Shown here: positions 44,096 to 48,375 of the stretch, piece after piece
How the letters are laid out: every line of letters starts with the position of its first letter
Position numbering within the stretch: position 1 is the stretch's first letter
Assembly: GCA_002011235.1 (NCBI GenBank)
Contig: MTMO01000034.1
Span: forward strand, 1 to 64,000
Direction of reading: 5' to 3'
DNA length: 64,000 nt
Source: Archaeoglobus sp. JdFR-27
GTDB lineage: Archaea > Halobacteriota > Archaeoglobi > Archaeoglobales > Archaeoglobaceae
Position numbers and translations under genes: made by a program
Notes under the pieces: model-generated
Database searches by the model: none
The model's input: the letters and a program-made list of their open reading frames with translations, nothing else
Told to the model about the DNA's origin: nothing

Positions 44096-44349
44096 GTGAT
44101 AGTTGTGAAAGCGACAAAACTTGTTCTATTGTTGGTGATATTGGTGATTGTAGAAGGAACTGCGACAGCAACCATAGTGAAAGACAACCAACTCGATAAA
44201 AAACTCGAAAATCTCAGAGAAGTTCTGAAAAATAAGAAGCTGACAGGAGAACAGGTAGAAAAATCATCGAGATAATTAAAATCCTTAGCAAAAAACTGCC
44301 AGAGAAACAGATAGATGATATAATAAAATCCTGTAAGGAGGGTGGATAG
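44096..44349 (+). pseudogene. Frameshifted small exported protein
   Basis: VIVVKATKLVLLLVILVIVEGTATATIVKDNQLDKKLENLREVLKNKKLTGEQVEK then, after restoring one A at 44259-44263, IIEIIKILSKKLPEKQIDDIIKSCKEGG*. Confidence 0.6.
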
Positions 44350-45262
44350 TTTGTTCAACATTGTCTCTAGAGTAGCGTGAAGAGCTGAGAAAGCTTGCAA
44401 TGAAGCATCCTAGGCCACCCCTAGGCTATACCGGAAACAAATCCATGGAAAATAAAAGATACAACTGTCCTCGGATCCTATGATGTACAAAGAGATGGAA
44501 GGATGTATACAAATGCCTTCGCTTATGCTTCACTGCCAGTCTGGGTTTGAGATTCTGCATTTCAGGAGCTTACCTTCTACATCGATTAACTCAGATTTTA
44601 CTCCCAGCTTGTCGTGTGGTATTCGAAATGGGTGGAAACATAGTCGTCTATTGTGTTCGCTGTCTCTCCGGGATTGTTCAAAAATGCAAGATTTGAAATC
44701 CACTTTCTCTCCTCTTCTAAAGTTTTAAGACTGATAAACAGCCATTTAAAGTCCTCAATGTTCATCTTTCTTTCATCGAAGGTGTTGTACAGAAAATTAT
44801 CCATGCTTTAACCCCTTTTAATTCCTTTAACCCGTAGAAAGATGTCTATAATGTCAATGTTAAGCAATGTGTGGTTTTAAAGGAGACAGAAAGGAGACAG
44901 GTTTCATGCTTACTTTTTTAGAAAGGAATTCTAAAGCATTGTGGAAGTTAGCCGGAGATAATTGTGAATAGAGATTCTGGTACAGATGGGCTTTGCAGAG
45001 GTAAAGACAAGTTATAGACATAAAATTTGGCCATAGGGTTCAGCAGAAGGATTCTTTTCAAGGTTTAAAGATAGAACGAAAAGATTCTGTAATAATTTCT
45101 TTATAATCGCCCAGGTATTATCTTCTTGAGGATACTGTTAGCTCGAATCAATCATTTACCATATATAAATTTTTCGAAATTGCTAGGTTTTTTCCTAACA
45201 TTTTCGTGTGTTTTATATATGATTATGTTGGAAAGCTATAGGTAGCGGGAGGTGACGGCGGG

Positions 45263-45670
45263 ATGAAAGCAATAAGAGTGGGTTTGGTTTTGTTGATGGT
45301 GCTGGTGACTGCTGGAGTAGCGATTGCAATGACAGGCGCGAATTCTAAAACAGAACATTATCGACACGACATGCAGGGTCGATGAAGCACACGAAACATG
45401 GGCAGAAAGAGAAGACTTCTTTGAAGAGTCTAACCACAGCTATTTCAGACTTTCGAGTTTGTATTGCACCAAATTACAACAAAGTAAATTGGGGGGATAA
45501 CATTCCAACGACGCACTATGCTTTGTGGCCGATGATGACGTTGTTTACCTCTTCTCGGGGATACAGGCACCTGGTGCTGGAAGTTGGAGTGGAAGAACGA
45601 CTATAATACAACCTGTACTCGAACATAACCAGGACAAGCTAATTCCTTCTAGCATTGGTAGGTATTAGTG
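45263..45670 (+). pseudogene. Decayed gene for a secreted protein
   Basis: RBS GGAGGTGA and signal peptide MKAIRVGLVLLMVLVTAGVAIAMTGA, then coding-like segments in successive frames: NIIDTTCRVDEAHETWAEREDFFEESNHSYFRLSSLYC, DDDVVYLFSGIQAPGAGSWSGRTTIIQPVLEHNQ. Confidence 0.6.
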
Positions 45671-45706
45671 ATAATTTTTAAAATTTAGAGTAGTAAATTC
45701 TTATAA

Positions 45707-46804
45707 GTGAGAAAAATGATAAACAGGTACATCGATCCGGAGAAGATAGATATAAAAGAGGATTGTGCCGAGATTGACGAAATTTATGCCGGAGAGAGAA
45801 TTGAAGGTTTCAGCCTGAGAGGTTTTGAGCTTGTTGAAAAGGCTGATAGCTTCGAGGATGGAATCGAGCTGGTCATCCCTTCGTTTCTCTCTGATGTGGA
45901 AGTGGCAGGATTTCACATAAAGGTTGCATGTGAGCTGAGTGAAGAAGCTGTCTCAGCCCTAGAATCTTTGATTGGAGAAGTCTTAAACAGAATTAAAGGA
46001 GTCGAGTACAAATTCAGGAAGGAAAAGGTTGTGCTAAATCTAACCAATATCGATCAGAAGACCTTTGAATGTATGGCAAAGCTTTTGTATGATGCATTTA
46101 AGAAAATTCCGGTTGTTGAAAAGGTTAGAGTTAAAATAATCCTTGATAAAGAGGAGTTCGACAAAATTTTGAAATATGCAGCTAGGAAACATGAAGAAAG
46201 GGAGAGGTTATTTCAAAGGAAAGAGGGGGAGGTTGACAAATTCTACATCTGCACCTCTTGCCAGTACTACCTCCCCGGTCATGGATGTGTGATCTCTCCT
46301 GAAAGGCCCTCTCCATGTGGAACAACATGGATTGAAGCAAAGGCTGCAGAGGAGCTTGAAGTCGTGAAATACTACTCTCCAGCTAAAAAGGGTGAGAAAA
46401 TCGCTGAATCTGAGTATTTAGGTGTCAATTCTGCCATTGAGGCTGTAACGGAAGGAAAAATTAGTAAAATCTCTTTGCACTCTGTTCTCAAGAATCCTCC
46501 ATCTATCGGTTTATATTCTGAGCTGATAATCTTTTACGACCCTGACAAGGATGGCTTTGGGATAGTTGATAGGAATTTCAAAGGAAAAACACCTCTTGGC
46601 CTAACTTTTGAGGAGATGGAGAAAATAATGGTTGGGCAGCAAGTTGAGGGGTTCGTTGGGGCGAGCTATGCCTACCTCAAAAGCGAGAAGTTTTTAAAGG
46701 ATGAAGGAGGATGGAACAGGGTTTACTGGGTATCTCCTAACGTTTACGAATACATTAAATCCTTCGTTGATAAGAGGCTTTTGGAGAAACTGAAGGGGAA
46801 TTGA
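45707..46804 (+). CDS. Acetyl-CoA synthase beta subunit (CdhC/ACS)-like protein lacking the Ni-site CGC motif
   Basis: CTSCQYYLPGHGCVISPERPSPCG with spacing C-x2-C-x8-C-x9-C; DPDKDGFGIVDRNFKGKTPLGLTFEEMEK...GQQVEGFVGASYAYLKSEKFLKDEGGWNRVYWV. GTG start at 45707, ATG at 45716. Confidence 0.75.
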   Translation: MRKMINRYIDPEKIDIKEDCAEIDEIYAGERIEGFSLRGFELVEKADSFEDGIELVIPSFLSDVEVAGFHIKVACELSEEAVSALESLIGEVLNRIKGVEYKFRKEKVVLNLTNIDQKTFECMAKLLYDAFKKIPVVEKVRVKIILDKEEFDKILKYAARKHEERERLFQRKEGEVDKFYICTSCQYYLPGHGCVISPERPSPCGTTWIEAKAAEELEVVKYYSPAKKGEKIAESEYLGVNSAIEAVTEGKISKISLHSVLKNPPSIGLYSELIIFYDPDKDGFGIVDRNFKGKTPLGLTFEEMEKIMVGQQVEGFVGASYAYLKSEKFLKDEGGWNRVYWVSPNVYEYIKSFVDKRLLEKLKGN

Positions 46805-46877: not shown

Positions 46878-47144
46878 ATGGTGAAGGTAAAACTCTTTGC
46901 GAACTTCAGAGAGGCAGCTGGAGAGAAAGAAGTAGATCTAGCTGCTACAACTGTAAAAGAACTTCTTAACAATCTTGTAAAAAAGTTTCAGAATCTCGAG
47001 CCATTGATTTTCGAAGATGGGGAGCTTAGAGATTATGTCCACATAATGGTTAATGGAAGACACGTAAACCATTTAGAAGGCTTGGACACTCCACTGAAAG
47101 AAAATGACACCGTTGCAATTTTCCCTCCAGTAAGTGGCGGATAG
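46878..47144 (+). CDS. MoaD/ThiS/SAMP-like small ubiquitin-like protein
   Basis: MVKVKLFANFREAAGEKEVDL...LKENDTVAIFPPVSGG with C-terminal diglycine. Confidence 0.9.
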   Translation: MVKVKLFANFREAAGEKEVDLAATTVKELLNNLVKKFQNLEPLIFEDGELRDYVHIMVNGRHVNHLEGLDTPLKENDTVAIFPPVSGG

Positions 47145-47193: not shown

Positions 47194-48375
47194 ATGGAGA
47201 AAATGACTGACAAGATTATCTCTTATAAAAAAGCTCTTAACATGGTAAAAAACAGGTTCAGTCCTACAGGCATCGAGGAGGCTAGCTTAGAAGCATCTGT
47301 TGGGAGAATTCTTACAGAAGACTTGAGAGCTAAAGTCAGTGTACCACCATTTGATATTTCATTAGTGGATGGATACACTTTTGCTGTTGATTCTGTAGCT
47401 TCCGATGAAGAGGTCAGCAATTACGTTTGGGTCAACACGGGTGATAGAATTCCTGAAGGTATGGATAGGGTTGTGAAATTCGAGGATGTAGTTGAAGAGG
47501 TTGGAGAGAGGGGCAAACTCATTTTAAAACATAAGCCAAAGAAGTGGGAGAATATCAGAAGGAAAGGTGAGGATATTTCAGAGGGGGAATTAATTCTTAA
47601 GAAGGGGACGATAATCGATGGATTGAAGATCGTTTCACTAAAAAACTGTGGAATAGAAGGGTTAAAGGTTTACAAGAAGCCAAGAGTTGCCGTAATTGCA
47701 ACGGGAGACGAGCTTGGCGATGAAATCGCTTCAAGCAACGATCTTATGCTTTCTCTTCTCCTCCGGCAATGGGGATGTGAGGTAAAAAACTTCCCCGTGC
47801 TGAAAGATAGGGAAGAAGAGATCAGAGTTGCTCTCGAAAGTTTAAGGGAATTCGATCTCATTTTAACGACAGGAGGAACTTCAAAGGGCAGAAGAGATCT
47901 GATGAGAGGGGTTGTATCAAAGATTGGGAGAATCTATTTCCACCAGACTAGAATTAAACCTGGAAGAACAGCATTTTTTGGTGAAATTCATTCCAAAATT
48001 TATTCCAAAGTTTCTAAAGTTCATTCTAACTCAGAAAATTCAAAAAGGTCAATTCCAATCTTCTGCCTGCCTGGAAACCCACCCGCATGCCTCGCTGCTT
48101 TTATGCTGTATGTAAGGCCTGCTGTTCTTAAGATGATTGGAACTGAGGAATTTACTTTTAGGGCGACGATTTCTGGCCATCTTTCCCCTTCCAAAAGCAC
48201 GAGATTCATTCTTCTGAACTTTAACGGCGATAAGGCAACCCCGCTAAAAGGAGGGTTTTTCAAGAGTTTGTTAGCCGCCAACAGCTATCTAATCTTAGAA
48301 GAGGGCAAAGGGATTAAAGAGGGGGAGATCGCTGAAATTCATCCCTTGATAAATTTGTCATCTCTGGGGGCTTGA
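47194..48375 (+). CDS. moeA: Molybdopterin molybdenumtransferase MoeA-like
   Basis: VPPFDISLVDGYTFAVDS, IRRKGEDISEGELILKKGTII, VAVIATGDEL, TTGGTSKGRRD, FCLPGNPPACLAAF. Confidence 0.92.
   Translation: MEKMTDKIISYKKALNMVKNRFSPTGIEEASLEASVGRILTEDLRAKVSVPPFDISLVDGYTFAVDSVASDEEVSNYVWVNTGDRIPEGMDRVVKFEDVVEEVGERGKLILKHKPKKWENIRRKGEDISEGELILKKGTIIDGLKIVSLKNCGIEGLKVYKKPRVAVIATGDELGDEIASSNDLMLSLLLRQWGCEVKNFPVLKDREEEIRVALESLREFDLILTTGGTSKGRRDLMRGVVSKIGRIYFHQTRIKPGRTAFFGEIHSKIYSKVSKVHSNSENSKRSIPIFCLPGNPPACLAAFMLYVRPAVLKMIGTEEFTFRATISGHLSPSKSTRFILLNFNGDKATPLKGGFFKSLLAANSYLILEEGKGIKEGEIAEIHPLINLSSLGA

Follow-up and report, generated by a model that had tools for sequence, protein, structure and literature searches.

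In the 64,000-nucleotide stretch of DNA from Archaeoglobus sp. JdFR-27 analysed here (hereafter the window), we identified a gene for a paralog of CdhC, the beta subunit of acetyl-CoA synthase (ACS), that retains the four cysteines of the [4Fe-4S] cubane but has lost the Cys-Gly-Cys (CGC) nickel ligands of the A-cluster. To judge from the aligned relatives, the loss of the nickel ligands is a clade-wide trait and more than the oddity of a single genome. The paralog is almost certainly an ACS-fold protein without a classical A-cluster. As a composite statement, to which we give an even chance, it may be best explained as a non-catalytic ACS relative with a lone [4Fe-4S] cluster that acts as an accessory protein in redox reactions or docking, and not as an acetyl-CoA synthase.

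The initial annotation had assigned the gene to positions 45707–46804 on the forward strand. This open reading frame was confirmed (365 codons when counted from an alternative GTG start at 45707, which is residue 1 in the numbering used below), but its start was not. Since the relatives of the paralog begin with MINRY or MIERF, the ATG at 45716 is the likelier start, and the protein then comprises 362 aa with an A2-like and an A3 domain (Table 1). Upstream of the gene, about 1.6 kb (44100–45700) contain no convincing gene. In close relatives this side is occupied by a SLOG gene and tRNA-synthetase-side genes, which in the genome of the window are found on contig C34 (L180), and the region therefore looks rearranged.

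Table 1 Features of the CGC-less CdhC paralog and its downstream neighbors in the window
Feature	Position	Strand	Evidence
CGC-less CdhC/ACS paralog	45716–46804	+	PF19436, 3.1e-42; NF003379, 1.4e-87; AlphaFold2 mean pLDDT 92.5; Foldseek TM 0.85 to 9c0s_E
A2-like domain	45794–46201	+	Fold retained in model; canonical invariants replaced; no match to PF03598
A3 (cluster-bearing) domain, PF19436	46202–46789	+	Profile match
Four cubane cysteines	46250–46318	+	Codons 46250, 46259, 46286 and 46316; spacing 3/9/10 as in ACS
Tyr replacing CO-alcove Phe (MetACS Phe195, Moorella Phe512)	46268–46270	+	Alignment; position from PMC11474084
Gly-Leu-Tyr replacing Cys-Gly-Cys nickel ligands	46508–46516	+	Codons GGT-TTA-TAT; alignment
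MoaD/ThiS-family protein, directly downstream of the paralog	46878–47144	+	PF02597, 4e-21
MoeA	47194–48375	+	PF03453/PF00994

The only significant Pfam family in the paralog was PF19436 (ACS/CODH beta C-terminal). The full-length CdhC models NF003379 and TIGR00316 (4.6e-61) also matched with high significance, at scores below their curated cut-offs (294 of 372 bits for NF003379 and 207 of 356 bits for the equivalog model TIGR00316). PF03598, the profile named in the initial annotation, gave no match at E ≤ 1, yet the whole-length CdhC models align over residues 14–360, and it is these models and PF19436 that place the paralog in the CdhC/ACS family; in the current Pfam release, PF03598 represents the A2 domain only (155 positions). 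Searches of the PDB with phmmer yielded significant matches to ACS only, with 9c0s_E as the best (7e-41). Likewise, the AlphaFold2 model, built from 33 natural sequences, retrieved only ACS structures in Foldseek at E ≤ 0.001, and the closest was CdhC of Methanosarcina thermophila. The profile matches and the predicted structure bear out the proposed ACS fold and indicate that the paralog still folds like the A2–A3 part of ACS.

To assess the metal site, we aligned 18 of the 21 clade members with 79 canonical CdhC/ACS sequences. The four cubane cysteines, intact in the paralog as C182, C185, C194 and C204, are present in all 18 clade members and in all 79 canonical sequences, and the codons confirm the spacing that had been read from the window. 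In contrast, neither of the two CGC cysteines occurs in any of the 18 clade members, whereas all 79 canonical proteins possess both, and the same distribution (0/18 versus 79/79) was found for the CO-alcove Phe. The roles of the CGC cysteines and the alcove Phe have been described (PMC11474084, PMC11321310). In a gapless alignment from the Pro of the PP motif to FY276–277, residues G268, L269 and Y270 lie exactly under C, G and C of the 79 canonical CdhC, and the phmmer alignment to the solved ACS 9c0s_E puts Gly-Leu-Tyr at the same place, which upholds the replacement noted initially. No CGC that could map to Cys595/597 occurs elsewhere in the paralog. Further differences affect A2, in which the canonical invariants R87, H90, H101, R105, W109 and R111 are replaced; the A2 Trp-x-Arg pair presumably matches residues tied to CoA binding in Moorella. 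The paralog also lacks the C-terminal extension of canonical archaeal CdhC, which measures roughly 75 residues (PMC11474084). Conversely, the invariant residues specific to the clade include Y101, K105, C122, H162, S184, E305 and S343-P344. These data suggest that the paralog very probably binds one [4Fe-4S] cubane through its four invariant cysteines, in line with the retained cluster site of the initial annotation. The cysteine spacing and homology point to a 4Fe-4S cluster over a 3Fe-4S cluster or Zn. Nickel, and hence the Ni-Ni site whose absence had also been proposed, would be missing along with the CGC cysteines.

Searches of 60 relatives and then of 394 genomes of the phylum recovered 21 clade members, all from the hot-vent archaeal family Archaeoglobaceae, which scored 252–344 bits and were clearly set apart from canonical CdhC (<180 bits). 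The carriers are patchily distributed and amount to 21 of 55 Archaeoglobaceae genomes. No orthologs outside this family were found among the 394 genomes or among the best 80 matches of a collection of 84,980 species, where the named matches were MAGs and genomes of Archaeoglobus, Geoglobus and Ferroglobus, and in plasmid records the only match was a distant bacterial ACS. In the phylogenetic tree, which the initial annotation had proposed as a check for a conserved clade, the paralog clade is set apart from all other proteins by a branch with 100% support. A sister relationship to the family's own CdhC was not rejected (AU test, p = 0.40), and neither was a grouping with the CSC-type copies discussed below. 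The paralog may stem from a recent duplication of the canonical CdhC of its family or from an older split; the tree separates the two proteins, which may nevertheless be sisters.

Two forms of the protein exist within the clade. Sixteen members are long forms (about 342–385 aa where complete), whereas five members from two genera consist of A3 alone (172–178 aa). The model of an A3-only form (pLDDT 93.8) superimposes on A3 of ACS with a Foldseek TM of 0.83–0.90, and no A2 remnants above chance were detected upstream of the A3-only genes. There is experimental precedent for an isolated ACS C-terminal domain that carries the A-cluster (PMC5298270). Because five members get by with A3, the function of the paralog would reside in this cluster domain.

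The genomic neighborhood of the paralog differs among genera. In the genus of the window, moaD follows in five of six genomes and moeA lies downstream in the same direction in all six, whereas in most other genera the paralog is oriented divergently from a SLOG (PF18306) gene, with or without an adjoining UPF0047 gene. SLOG was rejected as specific evidence for a functional partner: it is present in all 13 genera of the Archaeoglobaceae, whether or not they carry the paralog, and its proximity thus seems to be inherited synteny rather than a functional clue. Where genomes or genera lack the paralog, no remnants of it were detected next to SLOG. In genome G005 (L040:7971-9846), the paralog overlaps by 4 bp with a gene for an Mrp/ApbC-type P-loop ATPase, which is preceded by a DUF134 gene. 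The genome of the window has an intact cdhABC-cooC-DE operon on contig C19, including a CdhE with all Fe-S cysteines, while the paralog lies outside this operon on contig C16. Canonical CdhC is encoded by all 21 carriers and by 27 of 34 non-carriers, a weak association that ignores kinship (Fisher's exact test, p = 0.036). Extra copies of CdhD or CdhE were discarded as candidate partners, as carriers and non-carriers have essentially the same two. In every Archaeoglobaceae neighborhood examined the paralog was unlinked to cdhDE and cdhAB, and the SLOG/UPF0047, MoaD-MoeA (one genus) and Mrp (one genome) neighbors point elsewhere or nowhere.

A second case of CGC loss was found in gut Methanosarcinaceae by scanning the genome collection. 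CdhC of Methanimicrococcus blatticola reads PHTTGSVFE where canonical proteins read PHTSCGCFE, and CGC is likewise missing from CdhC in four further genomes of the same family, which have PHTTGSVF or PHTTGASV at this place. In all five genomes, the four cubane cysteines are kept and the alcove Phe is absent (L091:7428-8681 (L161:1501-2754) and L182-L185). The M. blatticola protein passes the NCBIfam cut-off of NF003379 despite its missing nickel ligands. In this group, cdhC has remained in situ before cdhD and cdhE. The adjoining CdhE has one or none left of the N-terminal Fe-S cysteines (L091:9951-11390, L193:7106-8551 and L196:7427-8962), which in ordinary archaeal CdhE form the motif NCGECG..TC...C. 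Methanimicrococcus and relatives have lost cdhAB and retained CdhCDE, for which a role in anabolism or CO detoxification has been proposed; the passages on this complex in PMC9723798 and PMC11362671 treat CdhC as ordinary and do not mention missing nickel ligands. Methanimicrococcus falls outside the fully supported paralog clade, on a long branch whose exact place is unsure. Judged by this placement, its CGC loss is independent, and it is an analogy for the protein in the window rather than an ortholog. By the same analogy, the relationship that is retained without CODH is that between CdhC and CdhDE.

Taken together, the paralog would be a lineage-specific copy of CdhC with an A2–A3 fold and one [4Fe-4S] cubane. 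As the Ni-Ni A-cluster could no longer be built, it would neither make nor split acetyl-CoA, and because it fails the defining CGC feature it should be classified apart from the acetyl-CoA synthases, despite its homology to them. The accessory protein would instead present its lone cluster to a partner, in a redox or a docking/regulatory role. As partner, the leading candidate would be the CODH/ACS machinery and, within it, above all the corrinoid protein CdhDE, to which ordinary ACS has to present the cluster of its A3 domain. A redox or docking role with the CODH/ACS-corrinoid system is more speculative than the composition of the metal site. The partner is argued from the normal role of A3 and from the analogous, non-orthologous Methanimicrococcus case. 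We further suggest, as a tentative extension that we regard as rather improbable, that ACS proteins stripped of nickel form a recurrent class in which CdhC was turned at least twice (in Archaeoglobaceae and in gut Methanosarcinaceae) into a lone-[4Fe-4S] partner of CdhDE, for example a reductive activator or a methyl-transfer chaperone, which in Methanimicrococcus would replace the Fe-S cluster lost by CdhE.

Several other explanations must be weighed against an accessory role. The loss of catalytic residues, the shortening to A3 and the patchy distribution could reflect a functionless CdhC copy in decay. This view is already contradicted by purifying selection (pairwise dN/dS of about 0.05–0.23 between species, for both long and A3-only forms), open reading frames, the clade-specific invariant residues and the four cysteines that have stayed invariant at only 44–66% identity in the A3 core, and we therefore consider decay very improbable. 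We see just as little room for an acetyl-CoA synthase with unconventional nickel ligands: although the fold is the same and the sections of the Geoglobus genome paper on this enzyme (PMC4600277) count it as a further beta subunit, the protein has lost both nickel thiolates, the alcove Phe and the invariant Trp, Arg and His of A2, and its carriers without exception encode a normal CdhC as well. An enzyme of different chemistry that holds a single metal beside the cubane, through the bridging C185 and new ligands (Tyr188, Tyr270, or C20/C122), is unlikely but deserves more consideration. Tyr occupies the alcove-Phe position in 12 of 18 members and Tyr or Phe the Cys597 position in 13 of 18, and among the long forms that have the respective region C122 is found in 13/13 and C20 in 11/12. 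However, C20 and C122 are missing from the A3-only forms, which carry R/H/K and L at the other two positions and are still under purifying selection. No common ligand set is conserved throughout the clade.

The paralog could also mimic ACS on the CO-channel exit of CdhAB, either as a cap or decoy while the real ACS meets the corrinoid protein (CFeSP) or as a competitor that regulates flux. MetACS must leave CODH for methylation, A2 and A3 both touch CODH (PMC11474084), and all carriers possess CODH/ACS genes. On the other hand, the packing of the A-cluster against CODH involves residues that are gone (CGC, Phe195), the A3-only forms lack A2 and thus half of the interface, and Methanimicrococcus retains its CGC-less CdhC without CODH, which leaves this proposal about as doubtful as the single-metal enzyme. 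Slightly less probable still is a factor for the maturation of Fe-S or Mo/W cofactors, whose cubane would be a delivery or scaffold cluster. The overlap with the ATPase gene in G005 and the moaD and moeA genes of the window's genus would fit such a factor, but the former was seen once and the latter in one genus only, and the Geoglobus, Ferroglobus and A3-only carriers have no such neighbors.

ACS ranks among the most ancient and best-studied nickel enzymes, and the cubane-only clade, together with the independent second case, offers natural mutants in which cluster binding and docking are uncoupled from the chemistry of nickel. A role with CFeSP, if true, would bear directly on how archaea keep their corrinoid reduced. 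Moreover, counts of CdhC genes overstate acetyl-CoA synthesis, since nickel ligands are missing from CdhC of Methanimicrococcus and, very probably, from GAH_00919 of Geoglobus ahangari.

The ACS/CdhC fold family is known; new here is a conserved ACS-like clade that lacks the nickel ligands. A CGC-less ACS was not reported in the open-access literature that we searched, a scope that excludes most subscription journals. GAH_00919 has been published as an additional ACS beta copy, and the sections of that paper concerned with it make no mention of lost nickel ligands (PMC4600277). No other CdhC-like gene of its genome lies apart from the cdh operon, and GAH_00919 very probably belongs to the paralog clade. 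With M. thermophila MetACS CdhC (PDB 9c0s/9c0t), the paralog shares the A2–A3 fold, the cubane cysteine spacing and many A3 glycines and aromatic residues, but it differs by the absence of CGC, Phe195 and the C-terminal extension, the altered A2 residues and its location outside the cdh operon. Bacterial AcsB (Moorella 1oao/1mjg, Carboxydothermus 1ru3) has the A3 fold and equivalent cubane ligands (Cys506/509/518/528) in common with the paralog, which lacks the A1 domain and equivalents of Cys595/597 and Phe512. Compared to the Archaeoglobaceae paralog, Methanimicrococcus CdhC retains the normal cdhC-D-E position and more canonical A2 residues, and is followed by the Fe-S-less CdhE. Second CdhC copies of the CSC type in Hydrothermarchaeota/Pyrohabitans relatives (L068:7476-8786, L077:1548-2936, L086:7467-8828 and L103:7437-8783) resemble the paralog in being extra copies beside a CGC copy and in the replacement of the alcove Phe (by His). 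Unlike the paralog, they are nearly full length and have kept both nickel cysteines as Cys-Ser-Cys.
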